From: Marinicella sediminis
GTDB taxonomy: Bacteria > Pseudomonadota > Gammaproteobacteria > Xanthomonadales > Marinicellaceae
Assembly: GCF_002000055.1 (NCBI RefSeq)
Contig: NZ_MVBD01000008.1
Coordinates: 124,001 to 188,000, forward strand
Length of the DNA stretch: 64,000 nucleotides
Direction of reading: 5' to 3'
Shown here: positions 3,452-53,379 of the stretch, in pieces
Layout of the letters: each line of letters opens with the position of its first letter
Position numbering within the stretch: position 1 is the first letter of the stretch
Notes under the pieces: generated by a model
The model's input: the letters and a program-made list of their open reading frames with translations, nothing else
What the model was told of the DNA's origin: nothing
Database searches by the model: none
Translations under genes and position numbers: made by a program

Positions 3452-6400
3452 TCATTGGTCTGACGAGACCCGGTGTTCTGTTCCTGCCAGTTTGCCAGGT
3501 GTCCATGAAATGTGTTCCAGATGCCCATCAGCCAGAGCCCGCTGGGTGTCCAGTAGATATCGGTTGATTGATCTTTGCTGGTGGGGTTGTTTGATCAGAT
3601 AACCATGGGCTTGGTTGCGACCGTTTTGTTTGGCTTCATACAATGCCTGATCTGCCAATTGAATGGACTTTTCTATGAAGTCAGGAGTCTCAGTAGCTGC
3701 GGGAAGATCTGAACAATGGATGAATCCAACAGAACATCTGATGGCCACTTGATGGTTTTCTTCCGTCTTCAGGTTCAGTTTTTGGCAGGCATTCAGCAGG
3801 TGCAATACCAGGTCCTTCAAAGCTGGTAATGAGGTTTGGGGGCAGAGCACAACAAACTCTTCGCCACCCCATCTGGCGGTGGTGTGATGCTTGTCCACCA
3901 GACCTATGAGCATCGCAGAAAACTCCACCAATGCCTGATCACCGAGGGCGTGACCAAACTGGTCATTGATTTTTTTAAAATGATCCAGATCGATGATAAT
4001 GACACCCATGCTTGCAGTGTGTTTGGCGAGTGCAAAATCCTTGATGATTTGTTGCATATGGTGACGATTTGAAAGGCGGGTTAGGTTGTCGTGATTGGCC
4101 AGCCAGTCAAGTCCCTCATTGACGGTTTCCAGCTGTTGAGTTCGCTCCTGTACCAACTGCTCCAGATACATGGCATGTTTGCGGCTGCGGTAGCCGCGGT
4201 AAAACAGGGCCAACAAGGCAGCAAACAGGCTCATCAACAAGAAAGCCGGGGTGCGCCAGAATGGTGGTGTTACGGTAAAAGTAAAAGCAGCAGGCTCATT
4301 GTTCCAGGCGCCATTACCGATGCGTGCCGTCACTTCAAAGCGATAATCACCAGGTGCCAATGAGTTGATTTGAATCTGATTCAGGCGGGTTTCCCGCCAT
4401 GGAGTACTGTCATGTCTGGCCAGACGGTAGCGGTAATTAACATCAGGCGCGCGTTGAAAACTGATGGCTGTGTAGCTGAAAGTCAGGTTGCTGTCCTGTT
4501 GATTGATGGCGGCTTGTTTACTGGTGGACAATGCCCCTGTTTCATTGTTGACCGACAGCAGTTGCACCGGTGGTGGGTTAGCCGCACCTGGTTTAAAGTG
4601 GGCAGCAAACCGACTCACGCCTTCACCGGTGCCAAACCACAGGTTGCCATCGGCATCCCGGTATCCTGCACTGCGGTTGACCAAATCAAAAACCAAACCC
4701 TCCCGGGAGGTGATGATGGTGAAATTAATGCCGTCAAAGATGGCCACTCCACGGCTGGTGCCAATCCATATGTCACCATTATGACCGGGCAGTAAAGTGG
4801 TGGCATTGTTATGTGGCAGTCCGTCTTCGGTGGTCCAGACCCGGAAGTTTTGACCATCAAATGAGCTCAGTCCATTGTTGGTGGCCAGCCAAAGCAAGCC
4901 CTGTTCATCCTCATAAATGTCATTGATGAAATTGGCGGCCAGGCCGTCCCTGACAGACCAATTGGTGAAACGCTGATGATCCCATTTGGAAAGCCCATTG
5001 GAAGTACCCAGCCAAATGCTGCCATCCAGGCTTTCAAATACCCGGTTTATGCGGTTATCTGGTAAGCCATCGGCAGTGAAGTAATTGGTGAACCTGCCAT
5101 TCTTAAAATGACTGAGGCCATTGTTGGTGGCCAGCCACAATGAGCCATCACTGGCTTTGGTCATGTGATAGATCACCGACCCCATCAGGCCATCAGCTGA
5201 GTGGAGCAGTTTAAATTGTCCATCGACCAGATAGCTGATGCCCTGTAAGGTTCCAAACCAGGGGTTGCCATCATCATCGATCAGACTGGTCAGGACCTTG
5301 TTGTGCGACAAACCATTCTTTTGGGTGATGTGGGTCATTTGAGTCTCACACAATCTGGTGATGCCGTCACCGTTGGTGCCAAACCACATGCAGCCCTCCG
5401 CATCTTCACTGATCGCATACACATTTGGGTTGGGCATTTTTGCCTGTGCTTTCCAGTTCAGCACATTGGTGGTGCTTAACCGGGCAATGCCACCACCATA
5501 AGTGCCAAACCAGGTGTTGTGTTCGTTGTCCTGAAAGGTTTGGTTTACGCTGTTGTCAGGAAGGCCGTTGGTCATGTTAAAGTGTTGTAATAGCTGACCC
5601 TGGGGACTGAACTGATATGCCCCGTTGTCCCGGGTGCTGATCCAGATGTTTTGCTGGTGATCCTGGCTGATGGAGTTGATTGCCAGGTTGCTCATATCCA
5701 CCGGCAATGGTTTGGGCCGGAAAGCCCCATCCTGCAGATGTGCAATGCCATGACGGGTGCCCACCCACACGTCGCCATCTGGCAGTGCGAAGATGGCGCG
5801 GATTTCAGAAGATGCTGCTTGCCAGGGCATCACTTCAATGATGTTCTCACGGATGCGATAAATGTGTTCAGAATCACCAGTCCATACGGTACCATCTCCG
5901 GTGATGAGCAGGCTTCTGACTTTTTGGGACCGCAAACCATTGGTCTGATCAAAGCGGTTGATGATCCGTGGACTGCTGCTGATATCGATTTGAATCAGTC
6001 CCATGCCGTAGGTGGCCATCCACAAAGACCCGTCGGGCGCTTCTTTGATTGCTCTGCCTGAGACATTTTCAGGCCAGGAATCAACCAGCACCTGTTCAAA
6101 ACGTTGTCCATTGAACTTTGCCAGGCCGGCTTCTGAAGCGGCCCACAAAGTGCCGTCACTGGCTTTGAGTAAGTCCCTTACCAGGTTGTGTGGCAATCCG
6201 TCTTTGCGGTTGTAAGTCCAGAATTGGTTACCATCGAAGCGATTAACCCCAGTGCGCGTGGTGATCCACAAAAAACCGGTGTCATCCTGCTCAATGTCAA
6301 ATATCACCATGTCTTCAAGACCATCGGCGATGCTCAGCAGAGCGAATGGCATTTGTTGTGCCGCCACAGAACAGGTCATGAATGATAAGATCACCACAAA

Positions 6401-6460
6401 CCACAGTTGCTGTAACTGTCTGTTCAATCCCTGTTTGTTTGATGTTGGTTGATTTAACAC
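3452..6460 (-). CDS. Two-component-regulator propeller / Y_Y_Y / GGDEF sensor (putative diguanylate cyclase)
   Basis: This 1002-residue protein begins with a signal-like segment (residues about 20-35). More than a dozen propeller repeats of the 'DxxGxLWxGTxxGLxxFDG' type follow to about residue 640, with repeated phrases such as 'WLATNNGLS' and 'DGLPDN'. Next come a Y_Y_Y-like domain (about 650-740), one transmembrane helix near 750-770, a coiled linker and a GGDEF domain. The active-site loop reads GGEEF (near 863-867) with 'IDLDHFKKINDQFGH' upstream, so it should be catalytic and make cyclic di-GMP. The RxxD inhibitory site five residues upstream is not present. The periplasmic propeller probably senses a ligand, which is unknown; related hybrid two-component sensors often sense oligosaccharides. 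The start is GTG at 6460. Confidence 0.88.
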   Translation of the reverse strand: MLNQPTSNKQGLNRQLQQLWFVVILSFMTCSVAAQQMPFALLSIADGLEDMVIFDIEQDDTGFLWITTRTGVNRFDGNQFWTYNRKDGLPHNLVRDLLKASDGTLWAASEAGLAKFNGQRFEQVLVDSWPENVSGRAIKEAPDGSLWMATYGMGLIQIDISSSPRIINRFDQTNGLRSQKVRSLLITGDGTVWTGDSEHIYRIRENIIEVMPWQAASSEIRAIFALPDGDVWVGTRHGIAHLQDGAFRPKPLPVDMSNLAINSISQDHQQNIWISTRDNGAYQFSPQGQLLQHFNMTNGLPDNSVNQTFQDNEHNTWFGTYGGGIARLSTTNVLNWKAQAKMPNPNVYAISEDAEGCMWFGTNGDGITRLCETQMTHITQKNGLSHNKVLTSLIDDDGNPWFGTLQGISYLVDGQFKLLHSADGLMGSVIYHMTKASDGSLWLATNNGLSHFKNGRFTNYFTADGLPDNRINRVFESLDGSIWLGTSNGLSKWDHQRFTNWSVRDGLAANFINDIYEDEQGLLWLATNNGLSSFDGQNFRVWTTEDGLPHNNATTLLPGHNGDIWIGTSRGVAIFDGINFTIITSREGLVFDLVNRSAGYRDADGNLWFGTGEGVSRFAAHFKPGAANPPPVQLLSVNNETGALSTSKQAAINQQDSNLTFSYTAISFQRAPDVNYRYRLARHDSTPWRETRLNQIQINSLAPGDYRFEVTARIGNGAWNNEPAAFTFTVTPPFWRTPAFLLMSLFAALLALFYRGYRSRKHAMYLEQLVQERTQQLETVNEGLDWLANHDNLTRLSNRHHMQQIIKDFALAKHTASMGVIIIDLDHFKKINDQFGHALGDQALVEFSAMLIGLVDKHHTTARWGGEEFVVLCPQTSLPALKDLVLHLLNACQKLNLKTEENHQVAIRCSVGFIHCSDLPAATETPDFIEKSIQLADQALYEAKQNGRNQAHGYLIKQPHQQRSINRYLLDTQRALADGHLEHISWTPGKLAGTEHRVSSDQ

Positions 6461-6534
6461 CCGTACTTACCGCACAATCATATCTCCAATCATCATAGCA
6501 TCATGTAGCCCGGTCATCAATGCCTGGCGGAAGC

Positions 6535-8172
6535 TCAATGGTGAACCGGTAAGCCTCGCTGGGTCAGGTAATATGTGGCGAACGATCCCAGCCAGTGACC
6601 ACCAGCGTAATGTTCGCCAGTGACTCCGGCCAGTCCTGCAGAGGCATGTTGGTCAGCAATTTTCAGTAGTTTTTCACGTCTTTTGTCATTGTCAGGCAGG
6701 GCATATGCGATTCCTTCAAGCATCCAGGCTCTGGATAAGTTTAAGCCATCCAAGTGGGCCAGTTTGCCATCAATCCGATCGGTGACTTGTGCCACAGGTA
6801 ACCAGTTCTTGTCTTTCCTGATGCCTGGTAAAAAACGTTTCAACCAGATTTTGAACTCAGTGGCTGTCATCACCCGTCGCATCAAATCACCTTCGGCCAG
6901 GCACGGTGACAAAAAATCATGGCCAGATGGCTCATAGTTCACTGGACACCGGCGGTCACCGGCATACAGCCTGAGGCTGTGTTCATTAATTAATGACAAC
7001 AATGCCTGATCCCCGGTCTGACTGGCATAATCATGTGCCATGCCAAATGCAAACGCAGTTTGACTGTGTTCACCACCACGGATGGGGTATGCCAGTTTTG
7101 GTATCCAGTCTGATAATTGATGTACCACATGGTCCTTGAGTGGCTGCATGGCGGCGAGCCATTGTTTTGCCTGCGGATGTTGCCAGTTGTTGATTTCTGT
7201 GTAGAGCTGTAAGAACCAGGCCAGTCCGTAAGGTCGTTCAAATCCTTGTCTTCCAGGCTGCTGAAAGTACCGCAATTCAGCGGCCATTCGTTCGCTGGTA
7301 AAGTGATTATCCAGGCGTTGAATAATTGCCGCACTTTCCGGGTGATTGGGAAACAACCTGGCCACGCGAGCCAGTAACCAATGACCATGAACCGAGGAAT
7401 GCCAGTCAAAACAACCAAAAAAAGCCGGATACAGTTCATCAGGTGGTCGTGCATCCTCAGCAGAATTGAGAACATGCTTTACCGAATTGGGGTAAATCTG
7501 GTCAAGACATTTCAGGGCCAGTTGAGCCATTTTCATCACTGGTTCTGGAGAAGACAGCTTGGCGTTGTTGGTTTGCTGATTGTTGACACGCAATAACCAA
7601 TTTCGTTGGCCCATTTGACTCTGCAAGGAATCAAGCCCTATGGTGCGTCTGCGATTATTGACAGTTTGCAGGTCATCAATCGGATACAGGATTTGTTGTC
7701 CGTTGCTGGTTGATCGGGCCATCAAATGACCATAATGTTGAGGTGAGTTCCCGGACATCAGGTAATGATCGCTCAGCTCTGCGTACCATTGGGCAGGCAG
7801 GTTGTTTTGTTTAACTTGTTGCAAAACCATCGGCAGGTATTTGGCTTGTTGCTCCAGGGAAGACCTTTTAAAAAGAATCAAACTGATTTTAGCTGCCCCC
7901 TCACCAACATCCTGAATGCCGGGCCAGTGTCCCAATTCGTCAATCACCAGTTGTAACACCTGTTGATTGTGTTGGTCCAGTTCATGCTGACTGGCTTGCA
8001 GCTGAGTCATCAAATCCTGATTTCGGGATTCGCTGCGGTTCAGTTGACTTATGGCAGTCCGGTGTTTCTGGTCGTCATACAAGGCACTGATCAACCAGTT
8101 TTGTGGTGAATTGACAGGTTCTGCCTGGAGCAGCGTGGTCACAATTAACAGCAATAATGGGGCTTTATTCAT
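6535..8172 (-). CDS. Secreted DUF6624-DUF2891 fusion protein
   Basis: From ATG 8172 the protein has a clear signal peptide (MNKAPLLLLIVTTLLQA). A region at about 75-160 with 'LGHWPGIQDVGEGAA' and 'YLPMVLQQVKQ' resembles DUF6624. A long C-terminal half (about 255-545) matches DUF2891, with 'ELYPAFFGCFDWHSSVHGHW', 'RPYGLAWFLQLYTE' and a final 'AGGHWLGSFATYYL'. DUF2891 proteins look like alpha/alpha-barrel glycosidase relatives, but no activity is established. A GTG at 8232 overlaps the upstream SDR stop as GTGA and would add 20 residues; I prefer the ATG because of the signal peptide. It is the last gene of a three-gene minus-strand operon. Confidence 0.75.
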   Translation of the reverse strand: MNKAPLLLLIVTTLLQAEPVNSPQNWLISALYDDQKHRTAISQLNRSESRNQDLMTQLQASQHELDQHNQQVLQLVIDELGHWPGIQDVGEGAAKISLILFKRSSLEQQAKYLPMVLQQVKQNNLPAQWYAELSDHYLMSGNSPQHYGHLMARSTSNGQQILYPIDDLQTVNNRRRTIGLDSLQSQMGQRNWLLRVNNQQTNNAKLSSPEPVMKMAQLALKCLDQIYPNSVKHVLNSAEDARPPDELYPAFFGCFDWHSSVHGHWLLARVARLFPNHPESAAIIQRLDNHFTSERMAAELRYFQQPGRQGFERPYGLAWFLQLYTEINNWQHPQAKQWLAAMQPLKDHVVHQLSDWIPKLAYPIRGGEHSQTAFAFGMAHDYASQTGDQALLSLINEHSLRLYAGDRRCPVNYEPSGHDFLSPCLAEGDLMRRVMTATEFKIWLKRFLPGIRKDKNWLPVAQVTDRIDGKLAHLDGLNLSRAWMLEGIAYALPDNDKRREKLLKIADQHASAGLAGVTGEHYAGGHWLGSFATYYLTQRGLPVHH

Positions 8173-47922: not shown

Positions 47923-50055
47923 ATGTACAGCAAAGGAATGATTCTGCTGGTGATGTTGGTCTCACTCACCGGTTGTGATGAACACATCAGCAAAGAACAG
48001 GTTTTAACCGACGTCAATCGTGACACCCAGCCGGTTAAACAAGCGTGGTTAAGAAACCATTTACCCGATCATACCCTGGGCTATTTAAATGTGCCTACGC
48101 CGTGGAATTATTTGTTTGATGCCAAAAATGATGTGTTGCATCAGGTTCAGTCAACGGCTGTTCATCAACAACAAACCAGAGACATCATCCAGGGATATCG
48201 GGATAATTACCTTCATCTGGTACCGGCTCAGTACCAGGAGTTGATTGAGTTGGTACTTGTTAAGATGGATACTTCTCTGGAGCTGGCGCTGATCAATTAT
48301 GCAGAGGCTGCTTTGTTACCGAATGTGGCTGTGGGGACCCGATTTAAAAACCTCAGCGCAACACAGCTGTTGACTCAGGTTGAACAGTTGTTGGCCGTGA
48401 TGGCTCCGGGAACCATCATAGAGGCGGTTGATGGTGAATCCATATGGTCATTCAAAATCAATGCGATTCAAAGCTGGATGCGCTACGATGAATCGACTGG
48501 GCAAATGTTGATACTCAGTGGTATGGGAGCCAACGCACAGCGTTTGTCAGCCTTGTGGACCGAACCTTCGGGAGATCGCCTGCAAGCCATTCAAAATCTG
48601 GACATGCAATCTGATCCCAGTGGCCTGAATTTCAGGAGCTGGTGGGCACCTGCTCGAATATATCAATTGGCTGGCGCTTTTGTGCCCCCTGATGATCATC
48701 AAAAAATTGCATACTTGGGGCTTGATCAAATTGATTATGTTTGGGTGGGCAGTGAATCAGCCAGAGGTCAGGCAGCCCTGGCGATGCATCTGCTGATGCC
48801 AGAGACCGGTTTCCGTCTGGCTTTACCCCGGGCGGAGGACTGGTATGACATTGAATTGGCAGGAATACCTGATTCGGTGATACAAATCACCATGCCCACC
48901 ACCGGGCAAGTGGCACAAGCCAAAACGTTCCTGAAAACTGATCAATGGAATGTGTCAGAGGCCGCATACGACGAGTTGGCTTTTTTCCGGGACTTTGAAG
49001 AACTGATGGGGTTTGGGTTTGCTGATATGTTTGATGCCTATGAACAGCAATTTTATGTGGTCAGCGATCAGTCAGGGTCATGGATGGCAGTGAAGATCCG
49101 TGATCGTACGCTGTATGCAGAGCTGGACAGCCAGTCCAATCTGGCCTTGGGCATCTCACCCAGTCAGCGGTCATTGTCAGGTGTGATGATCAACGAGGCC
49201 CATTTTTCGTTATGGCAAAAAGTCTTTGCCGGAAGTACCTCAGCTGCCAACAATAAAAATGCTGAACAAATCAGTCAGTTTCTTGGCTTATTCAAAGACC
49301 ACATTTATTGGTATGAAGCGGATGATGTGGTCTATCTGAGTTACCTCCCACAGGTATTGGCTGAAAAGAAATTGAGCAAGCATAAGGTTAATTTGTCTGC
49401 CTGGCTGACGGCTAATCAAGGGTCGAACTGGAATGCAGCAATACTGGCATTCGGTAAGGATGTCAAAGGATTGCCCAGAGACATTTACCACCGTTACCTG
49501 AGGTTGATTCAGGCCCTGGCTGATTTGGCACAGGTGGAGGTTGATTTGTTTGCCTTTCCTACGGCCCGTGAACTGAATTTGCCGGACAGTGGACGAATTA
49601 ATCTGACTGTGTCCTCAGATGCAGAAAAACTCAGTTTGCGATTTGCCTATGAGCATTCATTTGCTGAAGGCTTGTTTTATGGCGAAGGAACGGTTTTACT
49701 GGCCACCGCTGGCATCCTGGCGGCCACCGCGATCCCTGCTTACAATGACTACCTGTTGCGGGCGAAAATCGGCAATCGCCTGACTGCATTGGCGGACACC
49801 AAAACAAGCATTAATGAGCACTTTATCAGCAGACAATCCTTCACAGGGGTCAATGAATCACTGAACCTATCCGCACAAGGACTGTTGTTTGATGAAGAGC
49901 AAGCCGTTTTGATGGTACCTCTGGTTGATTTAGATGAACGTTTCGGAACTGATGATTATATCTACATGAAAGCCGATGGAACTGAGTCGTTTGTCATTGA
50001 GTGGGTTTGTTACAGTGACATTCAGCAAAATTTACTACCAGCTGCCTGCCGCTAA
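47923..50055 (+). CDS. Large lipoprotein with a C-terminal type IV pilin-like domain
   Basis: The 710-residue protein has a lipobox, 'SLTGC' (Cys at about 18), and a long N-terminal region of about 560 residues that I cannot assign (it has a DUF3352-like feel). Residues 583-710 look like a type IV pilin. The hydrophobic helix 'GILAATAIPAYNDYLLRAKI' (597 onward) matches the PilA alpha1, an upstream Gly583 and Glu588 fall at the -1 and +5 positions of a prepilin site, and 'EWVCYSDIQQNLLPAACR' ends with the pilin disulfide loop (Cys696 and Cys709). There is no leader directly before the helix. ATG 47923 has an AGGA site. The pilin body within a lipoprotein creates a topology puzzle. Confidence 0.8.
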   Translation: MYSKGMILLVMLVSLTGCDEHISKEQVLTDVNRDTQPVKQAWLRNHLPDHTLGYLNVPTPWNYLFDAKNDVLHQVQSTAVHQQQTRDIIQGYRDNYLHLVPAQYQELIELVLVKMDTSLELALINYAEAALLPNVAVGTRFKNLSATQLLTQVEQLLAVMAPGTIIEAVDGESIWSFKINAIQSWMRYDESTGQMLILSGMGANAQRLSALWTEPSGDRLQAIQNLDMQSDPSGLNFRSWWAPARIYQLAGAFVPPDDHQKIAYLGLDQIDYVWVGSESARGQAALAMHLLMPETGFRLALPRAEDWYDIELAGIPDSVIQITMPTTGQVAQAKTFLKTDQWNVSEAAYDELAFFRDFEELMGFGFADMFDAYEQQFYVVSDQSGSWMAVKIRDRTLYAELDSQSNLALGISPSQRSLSGVMINEAHFSLWQKVFAGSTSAANNKNAEQISQFLGLFKDHIYWYEADDVVYLSYLPQVLAEKKLSKHKVNLSAWLTANQGSNWNAAILAFGKDVKGLPRDIYHRYLRLIQALADLAQVEVDLFAFPTARELNLPDSGRINLTVSSDAEKLSLRFAYEHSFAEGLFYGEGTVLLATAGILAATAIPAYNDYLLRAKIGNRLTALADTKTSINEHFISRQSFTGVNESLNLSAQGLLFDEEQAVLMVPLVDLDERFGTDDYIYMKADGTESFVIEWVCYSDIQQNLLPAACR

Positions 50056-50075
50056 AGATTATTCATGACATCACT

Positions 50076-50111
50076 GCACCTGGTCATCATTTTTTGGCCG
50101 GGTGCTTTTTT
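50076..50111 (+). terminator. Terminator after the lipoprotein-pilin gene
   Basis: GCACCTGG (50076-50083) pairs with CCGGGTGC (50098-50105), one G-U pair, 14-base loop, followed by TTTTTT. It shows that the sigma gene downstream should have its own promoter. Confidence 0.8.
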
Positions 50112-50241
50112 ATTAAGCGATTGCAGTTTTTTTACTTCACTGGCGTTACTTTTTTTGCCAGTCCACGTTTCCGGCCATAAGATAGAGATTGACACACAGT
50201 CAAACAACCGGAGCAGAATCATCGTTTCAGACAACCAAATC

Positions 50242-50793
50242 ATGATGCAGGTCAAAGCAGGGCAGACAGCCATGTTGGGGCTGTTGTATGAGAGGCACAA
50301 AAAGGCGTTGTTTGGTTTCTTCTACAAAATGTGTCGTTCGACCACTGTCAGTGAAGATTTGGTGCAAACAGTTTTCATCAAGATACTGCATGGAAAAGAA
50401 GGCTTTATGGGACATGGCCAATTCATCACCTGGATGTTCCACATCGCCAGAAATGCTTTGCATGATCACTACCGCAAACAAAAAAACAATCACCTCGAAT
50501 TACTTGAATCAGGGCCAGACTCGGTGGCAGGAAGTGCTGATGTGGCTGCCAAATATGACAGTGAACAAACCATCAGCCAGTTGTTTTCAGCGATCGATTT
50601 GTTGAGCGTTGATAAAAAGGAATTACTTGTAATGAGCCGCTTTCAACACCTGAAATACAAAGAAATAGCCACCATCACCGGCAGTACTGAGGGTGCGGTC
50701 AAAATGAAAATGCGTCGCACCTTGATTGAATTGCGGGATCGGTTTAATGAGTTACAAAACGGAGGCATACATGTCACGTCAAAAAAACAGTGA
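50242..50793 (+). CDS. ECF-type RNA polymerase sigma factor
   Basis: From ATG 50242 the 183-residue protein has sigma region 2 ('LGLLYERHKKALFGFFYKM', 'SEDLVQTVFIKILH', 'FITWMFHIARNALHDHYRK') and region 4 ('LKYKEIATITGSTEGAVKMKMRRTLIELR'). Upstream frame to 50065 crosses a terminator and reads as non-homologous hydrophobic sequence, so it was dropped. A GGAG (50210-50213) lies seven bases before an in-frame ATC at 50221 (then VSDNQIM), which might be a rare start; ATG 50242 has no ribosome site. Its stop overlaps the anti-sigma start by 23 bases. Confidence 0.85.
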   Translation: MMQVKAGQTAMLGLLYERHKKALFGFFYKMCRSTTVSEDLVQTVFIKILHGKEGFMGHGQFITWMFHIARNALHDHYRKQKNNHLELLESGPDSVAGSADVAAKYDSEQTISQLFSAIDLLSVDKKELLVMSRFQHLKYKEIATITGSTEGAVKMKMRRTLIELRDRFNELQNGGIHVTSKKQ

Positions 50794-51616
50794 GCAGCTG
50801 GAGTTGCTGATGATGGATTACCTGTCGGGCAAAATGTCTGCCAGTGAGCAACAGCAGTTTCAGTGCTTGCTTGCATCACATCCTGAACACAGCCAGGAAT
50901 TGCTCGAATTAGAACACATGTTGCTTGTGTTTGATCAGCATCAACAACAACCGGTACCTAAGCCTTCAAGCGCGATGGATGACCGGTTTTACGGTATGTT
51001 GCATGAGCACATTCATCAGCAACAAGTCCAACCTGCAACTTCAGTTTCACAGTGGCACCAGCGAATTAGACAATGGTTCAGCTGGCAATCATTGAAACCG
51101 ATCGGCTTTGCTTTCAGCATGCTGGCAGTCGGGGTGTTAATCGGGCAAAACCGACAATTAAAAGAAGAGCAGCAACACTGGCAGGCCAACCAGGTTGATC
51201 AGCAACAACAGCAGATTCAAGCCCTCACTGTGCTCGCCATGTTGGATATGCCTTCTGCCAATAAACGTATGATGGCCCTCAATTTAGCGGCCATGACACA
51301 ACAACCAGGTGAGTCCTTGATAGAGGCTTTGTTGATCACGCTGAAACAAGACAACAACGTCAACGTGAGGCTGCAGGCATTGGATACCCTGACCACCTGG
51401 ATCAACAATGATAACAGCAACAGCTTCCTCAGAAATGGACTGGTCAGTGCCATTGATCATCAGCAGTCGCCCATGGTGCAAATCGCCATGGCTGACCTGA
51501 TGCAAAGAATTGGAGAGCCTCAGGCAGTGAAACCCTTACAGAAACTGCTTGAACAAGAACCGTTGATCGAACCAGTGAGAGAAAAACTCACAGCTGCAGT
51601 CGATCAATTGATTTAA
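50771..51616 (+). CDS. Putative anti-sigma factor with one membrane helix and HEAT-like repeats
   Basis: The 281-residue product starts at ATG 50771 with a perfect GGAGG. It has an N-terminal 'LELLMMDYLSGKMSASEQQQF' typical of anti-sigma zinc-finger-type proteins but no zinc Cys/His set, one membrane helix (about 108-124) and a C-terminal region of HEAT-like repeats ('NNVNVRLQALDTL', 'SPMVQIAMADLMQRIG'). It probably sequesters the sigma factor just upstream. The two DUF4097 genes follow at 24 bases. Confidence 0.8.
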   Translation: MSRQKNSEQLELLMMDYLSGKMSASEQQQFQCLLASHPEHSQELLELEHMLLVFDQHQQQPVPKPSSAMDDRFYGMLHEHIHQQQVQPATSVSQWHQRIRQWFSWQSLKPIGFAFSMLAVGVLIGQNRQLKEEQQHWQANQVDQQQQQIQALTVLAMLDMPSANKRMMALNLAAMTQQPGESLIEALLITLKQDNNVNVRLQALDTLTTWINNDNSNSFLRNGLVSAIDHQQSPMVQIAMADLMQRIGEPQAVKPLQKLLEQEPLIEPVREKLTAAVDQLI

Positions 51617-51640
51617 TCAAACCAACAACAGGAAATTAAC

Positions 51641-52543
51641 ATGAATTACATCCATTCCATCTACACCAGTTTGCTGGGGATGGCGGTGCTGACACTGTTC
51701 AGCACCACTTCCATCCATGCTGGTGAAGTCGCATTATCAGAGCGTGCTGTCATCAAACGACAAGACTCATTTGCTGATCCGCAAGGACAAAATACACTGA
51801 TAGTGCACAATATTTTTGGTGCCATTGATGTGCAGGGTCATGCCGGTGATGACATTCAGATAGTGGCCAGCAAATCCATTTATGCGGAGAACCGTGCTGA
51901 TCTAAAGCAGGGCATGGAAGAAGTGGAATTGCGGGTTGAAAACCTGGGCAATCAACTTTATGTGTTCCTTGACTTGCCGCTGGTATCATTCAATGCCACC
52001 ACTGGCGAGATCAGTTATGAGGGCTACTGGCAACGAGACAAGCACCGGCATACGGGTTATCGACATCTGCTGGACATTACCATCAGAATTCCCAGGCACA
52101 CCAGTCTGAAGCTGTCGGCGATCAACGACGGAGCCATTACAGTCAATGGTATTGATGCGGATTTTTTGAATGTGTCAAACATCAATGGAGCCATTGAGTT
52201 GGTGGATGTGGCTGGTCAAACACGCGTGAATGCAATCAACAAAGACGTCCACATTGCTTACCGCAGCAATCCCCCGGCAGAATCCAGTTTTGAAACCATC
52301 AATGGTGATCTGAACATCAGCTTCGCTGGCACACCGGATGCAGAAGTCATCTATCAGACCATGCATGGGGATTTGTATACGGCTTATGACGTAACCCCCA
52401 TGAAGCCACAGGTTGAGGTGCAAAATAAACAACGCAACCGTGGTATCAAATATCAACTCAACGCAGACAGTCGCCTGCAATTGGGGGCCGGTGGTGCTGT
52501 ATACCGGTTCAAAACCCTCAATGGTGACATCAGATTACAATGA
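51641..52543 (+). CDS. DUF4097 beta-helix-like secreted protein
   Basis: The 300-residue protein has a signal peptide (about 1-27) and then repeated short strands of the DUF4097 type: 'LIVHNIFGAIDVQGHAGDDI', 'LKLSAINDGAITVNGI', 'VSNINGAIELVDVAG', 'FETINGDLNISF' and 'FKTLNGDIRLQ'. DUF4097 proteins often follow ECF sigma/anti-sigma pairs and may act as surface or periplasmic adhesin-like partners. It is a paralogue of the next gene and is close enough to share its transcript. Confidence 0.88.
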   Translation: MNYIHSIYTSLLGMAVLTLFSTTSIHAGEVALSERAVIKRQDSFADPQGQNTLIVHNIFGAIDVQGHAGDDIQIVASKSIYAENRADLKQGMEEVELRVENLGNQLYVFLDLPLVSFNATTGEISYEGYWQRDKHRHTGYRHLLDITIRIPRHTSLKLSAINDGAITVNGIDADFLNVSNINGAIELVDVAGQTRVNAINKDVHIAYRSNPPAESSFETINGDLNISFAGTPDAEVIYQTMHGDLYTAYDVTPMKPQVEVQNKQRNRGIKYQLNADSRLQLGAGGAVYRFKTLNGDIRLQ

Positions 52544-52554
52544 ACAAGGAGCCA

Positions 52555-53379
52555 ATGATGAAAAAAATGAGATATGTAATGTATTTATTGATATTGAGCC
52601 CGCAGTTGTGGGCCCAGTTGGACGAGGAGATGGTTGAAGAGCTGGTCATCCCATTGAGTCAGCCTGGTAAGCCAGGAATCTTGGAGGTCAATCAGATTTA
52701 TGGTGGAATTACCGTGACTGGGTATGATGGCAATGAGGTGATCATTGTGGCCCGCCAGAAAAAAATGCATCGCACTGAGCCCATGAAAAATGGTCTGCGG
52801 CGAATTCAGAATAACAGCATGGCATTGGAAGTTGAAGAGGCTGACAACCATGTCGAAGTGGTGTCGAAAAACTGGGGCAGCGATGGCCGCGCGGTGCTTA
52901 ATCTGGAAGTGCAGGTGCCACGGAACTTTAACCTCAAATTGAAAAACATCAATGACGGAGCAACCCATGTTGAACAAGTCAGGGGTGATTTGGAAATCAG
53001 TAACATCAATCATGACATCATTTTGATGGATGTTTCCGGATCAGCAGTGGTCGACAGCATCAATGGCACCATCAAGGCGGTGTTCAATGAAGTCAGCAGT
53101 GACAACCAACTGGCATTCACCAGTTTCAATGAAGATGTTGACATTACCTTGCCGGCTGAAGTGAAGGCAGATTTCAAGTTACAGACTGAGTATGGTGAAA
53201 TTTACACAGGATTTGACATTGATTTTTCAGCCACAGCACCGCAGATTAAACGAGAAAAGGGCAGCGGCAGTTATAAAGTCAAACTGGAGAAATGGGTGTC
53301 CGGTCAAGCCAATGGTGGTGGGGCAGGGATTGTACTGAAAAGCCATTCTGGCGATCTGATCATCCGCACCGATGAGTGA
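52555..53379 (+). CDS. DUF4097 secreted protein (paralogue)
   Basis: From ATG 52555, after an AAGGAG site, the 274-residue protein has a signal peptide and the same strand pattern: 'ILEVNQIYGGITVTGYDGNEV', 'LKNINDGATHVEQVRGDLEISNINHD' in short pieces and 'LKSHSGDLIIRTDE'. An ATG at 52540 overlaps the upstream stop and adds five residues. It ends the ECF module and is followed by a terminator. Confidence 0.87.
   Translation: MMKKMRYVMYLLILSPQLWAQLDEEMVEELVIPLSQPGKPGILEVNQIYGGITVTGYDGNEVIIVARQKKMHRTEPMKNGLRRIQNNSMALEVEEADNHVEVVSKNWGSDGRAVLNLEVQVPRNFNLKLKNINDGATHVEQVRGDLEISNINHDIILMDVSGSAVVDSINGTIKAVFNEVSSDNQLAFTSFNEDVDITLPAEVKADFKLQTEYGEIYTGFDIDFSATAPQIKREKGSGSYKVKLEKWVSGQANGGGAGIVLKSHSGDLIIRTDE

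Follow-up and report, generated by a model that had tools for sequence, protein, structure and literature searches.

A lipoprotein family that carries a type IV pilin module at its C-terminus

Introduction

According to a review, the class III signal peptide at the start of prepilins is invariable, and cleavage by the prepilin peptidase is catalysed at the cytoplasmic side (PMC10191384). Modular pilins have been surveyed by querying an N-terminal IPR012902 domain (PMC8179133), a query that would miss a pilin module placed at the C-terminus. Here we describe such a C-terminal arrangement in a 710-amino-acid lipoprotein of Marinicella sediminis, encoded on a 64,000-nucleotide stretch of contig NZ_MVBD01000008.1 (positions 124,001 to 188,000; hereafter the window, whose numbering we use), and in a family of relatives with the same architecture. 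Both its fold and its sequence mark the C-terminal module as a pilin, yet the family is not classed as pilin because it fits neither the order of modular pilins nor the invariable N-terminal class III peptide. We found no published description of a lipoprotein with a C-terminal pilin module by title or opening of the abstract, in a search whose coverage left out preprints and most subscription papers.

Results

Anatomy of the lipoprotein and its family

An uninterrupted frame with an ATG start (47923-50055, forward strand) encodes the 710-residue protein, whose parts are as follows.

47923..50055, forward strand, stop codon included: lipoprotein with C-terminal pilin module, 710 amino acids; architecture seen in 62 complete family places
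47923..47973, forward strand: lipoprotein signal peptide, residues 1-17 (MYSKGMILLVMLVSLTG), from sequence reading; lipobox found by motif search in 59 of 62 complete members
47974..47976, forward strand: Cys18, the predicted lipidated residue, followed by Asp19 (+2); invariant in alignment A1 (29 of 29)
48031..49650, forward strand: N-terminal alpha/beta domain (N-domain), residues 37-576; best fold match TP0453
49651..49734, forward strand: linker and weakened alpha1N helix, residues 577-604; low predicted local distance difference test score (pLDDT) and low hydrophobicity
49669..49686, forward strand: pseudo prepilin site, G583 (-1) to E588 (+5); Gly/Glu pair in 1 of 62 members
49735..50052, forward strand: pilin body (alpha1C and head), residues 605-710
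50008..50010, forward strand: Cys696, first cysteine of the presumed disulfide loop; column invariant in alignment A3 (41 of 41)
50047..50049, forward strand: Cys709, second cysteine of the presumed loop; likewise 41 of 41 in A3

We collected 66 distinct places of the family, of which 62 are complete, the window's own among them; re-fetched genome copies (L033-L042, L150 and L151), places cut by contig ends (L016, L147 and L153) and one that loses its frame (L146) were removed before the 62 were counted. Lipoboxes were detected by regular expression with a loose pattern (L15-T-G-C18 in the window protein), and the three complete members in which none was found (L047, L048 and L054) have an ordinary-looking signal peptide. 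There is strong sequence support for an exported protein with a lipoprotein signal peptide and a lipobox ending in Cys, and lipidation is predicted. None of the 62 complete places is without the pilin module, and the pilin body holds at least two cysteines in all 62, matching the C-terminal two-cysteine hallmark of type IV pilins, with the disulfide presumed. Columns invariant across the 29 rows of alignment A1 include C18, A601, P605, Y607, Y610, C696 and C709. No Pfam family was assigned to the N-terminal part of some 540 residues.

The N-domain is found in 15 of the 18 genomes searched in the genus (as a fragment in G016 and cut by contig ends in G009), being absent from G001, G002 and G011; across the order, 54 of 250 genomes have it. 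Full-length relatives occur in 14 of the 369 genomes of the class sample, and the N-domain in 2 of the 398 genomes of the phylum sample, namely the window's genome and another of its order; for the class and the phylum, scoring was limited to the top three candidates of each genome. Plasmids gave no match to the whole protein.

An earlier reading of the window's letters, the original prediction, had pointed to the lipobox, to an AIPAYNDY segment (residues 603-610) and to a final disulfide-loop pattern (C696 and C709), all of which are borne out. It had also proposed looking for the same architecture in other genomes, where we indeed found it, and had raised the possibility that a frameshift or assembly error had joined two separate genes. 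Such an artefact has a negligible chance and we regard it as ruled out: the join is common to 62 complete places in separate genomes, and no fault was found in the window, although one relative, in G887 (L146), does lose its frame ahead of the pilin module.

Pilin identity and the apparent prepilin site

Residues 560-710, compared with the chains of the PDB by phmmer, matched two PilE sequences of Neisseria (E values of 3.9e-7 and 4.2e-7), FimA of D. nodosus (3.6e-6) and PAK pilin (5.7e-4); besides the two PilE sequences there were 15 more up to an E value of 1, every one named pilin, fimbrial or pilus-like. Of 29 family members, 27 matched Pfam family PF00114 at E <= 0.01, the best value being 1.8e-16; taken by itself, the window protein scored 18.9 bits, below the 22-bit cut-off. 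The predicted structure of the module is a pilin fold, with alpha1 and an antiparallel sheet head. Judged by these comparisons, the likeness to pilins is more than chance. The proposal of a gene fusion or periplasmic pilin-like domain thereby gains support, in that a true pilin module forms the C-terminal part of an exported lipoprotein fusion, and the fold unlike pilin that would have spoken against it is not what was predicted; the description of the pilin body as 'apparently complete' does not hold, the leader and cleavage signature being unconserved (1 of 62) and alpha1N weakened. Separate, ordinary pilins with normal leaders are present in the window's genome.

Setting P605 as P22 of pilins makes L584 the +1 residue, G583 -1 and E588 +5, so the Gly and Glu that had been noticed in the right spacing are literally there; they are not, however, a feature of the family, and a functional site is unsupported. 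Among the 62 complete members Gly at -1 occurs in two, Glu at +5 in one, and both together in the window protein only, whose +1 residue is Leu. The usual +1 residue of prepilins is Phe or Met. No N-terminal class III signal peptide was found among the 62. With the Gly/Glu pair in a single member, we rejected prepilin processing as a property of the family, and the 'prepilin site' of the window protein looks coincidental. The correctly spaced pair would suit a real minor pilin, cut by the prepilin peptidase at G583 and releasing its C-terminal part into the pilus; the singularity of the pair, the Leu at +1 and the weak helix tell against this, and because the N-terminus is exported the site would face the periplasm, the wrong side for a peptidase that acts at the cytoplasmic side (PMC10191384). 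We hold a minor pilin to be very improbable.

The alpha1N helix, the topology of the head and the lipid anchor

In the full predicted model, pLDDT falls below 50 at residues 580-593 and 595-597. We compared alpha1N by two simple scales, the 19-residue Kyte-Doolittle maximum and an insertion-scale sum, with scale values added as simple sums. The family (n = 62) has a mean maximum of 1.80 (1.14-2.45) and a mean insertion sum of +2.96, which is below zero in one member; the corresponding means are 2.98 and -2.91 for true pilins (n = 11) and 2.89 and -2.26 for membrane-protein pilin fusions (n = 13). The family does not overlap the pilins in hydrophobicity, and by comparison of the 62 members with the 11 pilins alpha1N is not hydrophobic enough for a normal membrane span. 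Because alpha1N is weak and the cysteines are conserved, alpha1N is probably not a membrane span and the head probably periplasmic; the concern that the helix would enter the membrane from the wrong side then probably does not arise.

Were alpha1N a real span entered from the periplasm, the exported N-domain would place the head in the cytoplasm. In alignment A1 acidic residues often stand ahead of the helix and Arg or Lys after it, a pattern that, by the positive-inside rule, would weakly favour this orientation. Against it stand the insertion sums, positive in 61 of 62 members, the two body cysteines in every member and the existence of lipoproteins that have the head without such a helix (described below), and we consider a cytoplasmic head improbable.

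A motif search of 864 kb of the window's own genome (800 kb plus the window) gave 19 candidate lipoproteins. Within the taxonomic family of the window, 17 of 23 lipobox members have Asp at +2, compared with 1 of the 18 remaining candidates from the window's genome (Fisher P 1.7e-5, relatedness ignored). By the Escherichia coli Lol rule, Asp at +2 keeps a lipoprotein in the inner membrane, which suggests that in the window's lineage the protein would be retained at the periplasmic face of that membrane.

Small lipoproteins and swapped heads

Small lipoproteins with a pilin body and without alpha1N occur in three genomes (G004, G008 and G023). In G004 and G008, 2 of the 18 genus genomes, the small gene lies directly downstream of the long one and its product joins a lipobox to a pilin body through a short non-hydrophobic stretch, scoring 37.6 bits against PF00114 in the case of G004 (cut-off 22). 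In G023 the small lipoprotein and the long protein are encoded on different contigs; the body of the small one has its nearest matches among the long proteins of the same genus (36% identity to L017) and scores 21.8-21.9 bits against Pfam, just below the cut-off of 22. The window's genome also encodes a 258-residue protein with an N-terminal hydrophobic segment, a middle part that is probably a coiled coil, and a pilin body without alpha1N (PF00114, 49.4 bits). Together with the small lipoproteins, this protein implies that the pilin head occurs on several anchors.

L008:909-1325, reverse strand: small lipoprotein
L004, open frame from 3605, forward strand: small lipoprotein
L179:1036-1809 (G000:C1:144137 region), forward strand: 258-residue pilin-body protein of the window's genome

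In related genomes pilin modules also recur at the C-terminus of other proteins, with a strongly hydrophobic alpha1N and no prepilin site (L091, L092, L094-L097, L099, L100, L102-L105 and L107); read by eye, these fusions are of GYF-, RDD-, M48-like, TM2- and zinc-ribbon types, some being without a recognised domain.

We placed 107 pilin modules on a tree (61 lipoprotein, 30 pilin, 14 membrane fusion and 2 small lipoproteins, with one of the 14, 'fusion_L059', being a mislabelled contig-cut pilin); it is built on few columns, and 42 of its 104 inner branches are open. The lipoprotein label changes seven times, at least three of these changes being forced by well-supported branches, versus 34.7 changes for shuffled labels; given these changes, the tree does not establish that the lipoprotein heads arose once, and further swaps are possible. 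Two of these heads, that of L026 (97/86) and, with weak support, that of L130 (83/2), group within the pilins. Against five same-genus relatives, L026 (G025) is 36-43% identical in the N-domain and 22-32% in the head, whose closest counterparts are a pilin of its own genome (59% over 80 residues) and a pilin of G019 (48% over 132 residues). The frame of the G025 pilin (L168, G025:C72) ends in VSYTHLRAHETGRNL, a tail that looks as if it derives from an adapter; the identity to L026 was taken over 80 residues only. L130 (G981) is 41-46% identical to L031, L133, L131 and L136 in the N-domain and 32-43% in the head, which shares 67% over 125 residues with an RDD-type pilin fusion and 55% with a pilin from its own genome; its placement among pilins rests on these identities, the tree support being weak. 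For comparison, L018 and L020 share 50% in the N-domain and 57.5% in the head. The simplest reading is that the heads of L026 and L130 were replaced through recombination by pilin-like modules of the same genome, and the seemingly replaced heads remain pilin-like.

The same data could be taken to mean that pilin sequence variation draws on the 3' end of the gene as a recombination partner or store: both heads fall among pilins, both are most like pilin modules from the same genome or from one of the same genus, and the label changes leave room for further swaps. In five of the seven genomes with own pilins that were compared (G000, G019, G021, G023 and G028), however, the heads are closest to other lipoprotein heads, and the two cases may be incidental gene conversion; such a store seems hardly probable.

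Relation to type IV pili

The explanation that we prefer, tentatively and at rather less than an even chance, is a pilin mimic, held in the periplasm by a lipid anchor, that docks on components of the type IV pilus. The anatomy is well supported; the link to type IV pili is one that we infer, from evidence that is suggestive only. In favour of the mimic are the pilin homology and fold of the module, the conserved architecture, the weak alpha1N, the small lipoproteins without that helix, the seemingly replaced heads that are still pilin-like, and the co-occurrence with pilus genes. In 53 chosen genomes (48 carriers of the gene and 5 non-carriers), assessed with curated cut-offs, PilB and PilQ each exceeded the cut-off in 44 of the 48 carriers and one or the other in 47, the exception being G010, an assembly of about 530 contigs; G018, which matched neither, is without the family gene as well. 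Of the 369 genomes of the class sample 257 have PilB, among them 13 of the 14 carriers; the fourteenth, G135, has PilQ. As proof, this co-occurrence was set aside as too weak, the hypergeometric P for 13 of 14 by PilB alone being 0.04 with kinship ignored.

Several observations weigh against such a mimic. Four of the five non-carriers tested (G001, G002, G011 and G020) have both PilB and PilQ, and 244 of the 257 PilB genomes of the class sample are without a full-length relative among the candidates scored. No type IV pilus family was found among 19 scanned adjoining proteins, a selection from 16 loci, and few neighbours recur outside the genus. Asp occupies +2 in only 4 of 36 members outside the window's taxonomic family, alpha1N of one member (L027) lies within the range of the membrane fusions, and the charges flanking the helix point, if weakly, to a cytoplasmic head.

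A close rival, and one that we think quite possible, is a lipoprotein that works independently of pili, its pilin fold repurposed as a structural or membrane-touching domain, for example in a lipid-binding lipoprotein like TP0453, with the residual alpha1N resting on the membrane or packing on the N-domain. The predicted fold of the N-domain is closest to TP0453, which is described as inserting amphipathic helices into membranes and is a proposed lipid carrier (PMC5421087), and both the neighbours free of pilus genes and the piliated genomes free of the family gene would sit well with it. The match is partial, however (220 residues, root mean square deviation, r.m.s.d., 5.6), the two best rows giving 7-8% identity at r.m.s.d. 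5.6-5.8, which is a likeness of fold only; the small lipoproteins of three genomes retain the pilin body without the N-domain; and replacement of heads from the same genome would be odd if the identity of the head were irrelevant, although chance gene conversion would also explain it. DUF3352 (PF11832), also tried for the N-domain, gave no match at E <= 10 in the window's genome, the sole genome searched; the control matched in 3 of 14 genomes, 2 of them over the cut-off.

The 19 scanned neighbours included one type II secretion K protein and one PilZ/YcgR-like protein, and two matched nothing. A common theme of the neighbourhood was rejected on this sample, the only shared item being a GSDH-type protein encoded upstream in a pair of related genomes. 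The type II secretion K protein, the single secretion-type neighbour of the sample, belongs to L076 (G275), where it is encoded at 5645-6724 on the forward strand, 152 bases upstream of the family gene and on the same strand as it. Downstream of the gene in the window, 50065-53379 (forward strand) encodes a sigma factor of the extracytoplasmic function (ECF) class, a HEAT-repeat protein that resembles anti-sigma factors, and two DUF4097-like proteins; among the displayed genes of six other genus loci, this block is present at L037 and L090 and not at L033, L038, L039 and L040.

Discussion

The module of this family is best explained as a type IV pilin fold without the means to be a pilin, because it has no class III leader, no conserved Gly-1/Glu+5 pair and an alpha1N that is too weakly hydrophobic. 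The docking mimic that we prefer would act in four steps. The protein would be exported and lipid-anchored at Cys18, for which the signal peptide argues strongly, and in the window's lineage Asp at +2 would keep it at the inner membrane, facing the periplasm, if the Lol rule applies. The pilin head would then fold in the periplasm and close its disulfide, as the conserved cysteine pair strongly indicates. The lipid anchor may take over the anchoring job of alpha1N, so that the head would be shown to the periplasm unpolymerised. In the last and weakest step, the head may dock on type IV pilins or parts of the pilus machine, while the TP0453-like N-domain may bind another partner, perhaps lipid.

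A bolder extension, which we offer as speculation and think rather unlikely, is a new class of 'lipopilins' in which a lipid anchor would have taken the place of the membrane helix, either by itself, as in the small lipoproteins, or with a TP0453-like domain in between, as in the long ones; the non-polymerising head would be shown where pili are assembled, acting as decoy, receptor or brake, and be refreshed by recombination from the cell's own pilin genes to keep matching them. With its pilin module at the far end of an exported protein, this conserved family departs from the invariable class III start that the review describes (PMC10191384). If the proposal is true, the pilin head is separable from filament assembly and kept for another use, and the natural variants, small lipoproteins without alpha1N and swapped heads, allow one to ask what the head binds.

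Like type IVa pilins (PilE/PilA, PF00114), the family has the pilin fold, the AIPAY(N/Q)DY motif and a C-terminal two-cysteine loop; unlike them, it is without an N-terminal class III leader and a conserved G-1/E+5 pair, its alpha1N is weak, and its module is preceded by an exported domain of some 540 residues and a signal peptide, mostly with a lipobox. The membrane-protein pilin fusions of related genomes share the C-terminal pilin module and the missing prepilin site, but have a strong alpha1N (13 examined, mean 2.89), and the part that precedes it looks cytoplasmic or membrane-embedded, whereas the preceding domain of the family is exported.

To our knowledge, TP0453 of Treponema pallidum has no pilin module. 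It may share the predicted fold of the N-domain and is, like the family, a putative lipoprotein, but at 287 residues it is far shorter (PMC5421087). PilF/PilW are lipoproteins that act with the pilus, an analogy of place only (PMC10191384). The modular pilins (Streptococcus sanguinis PilB and PilC, and CofB) likewise join a pilin module to an unrelated domain; in their survey, that extra domain comes after an N-terminal pilin module (PMC8179133), and in the lipoprotein family this order is reversed.
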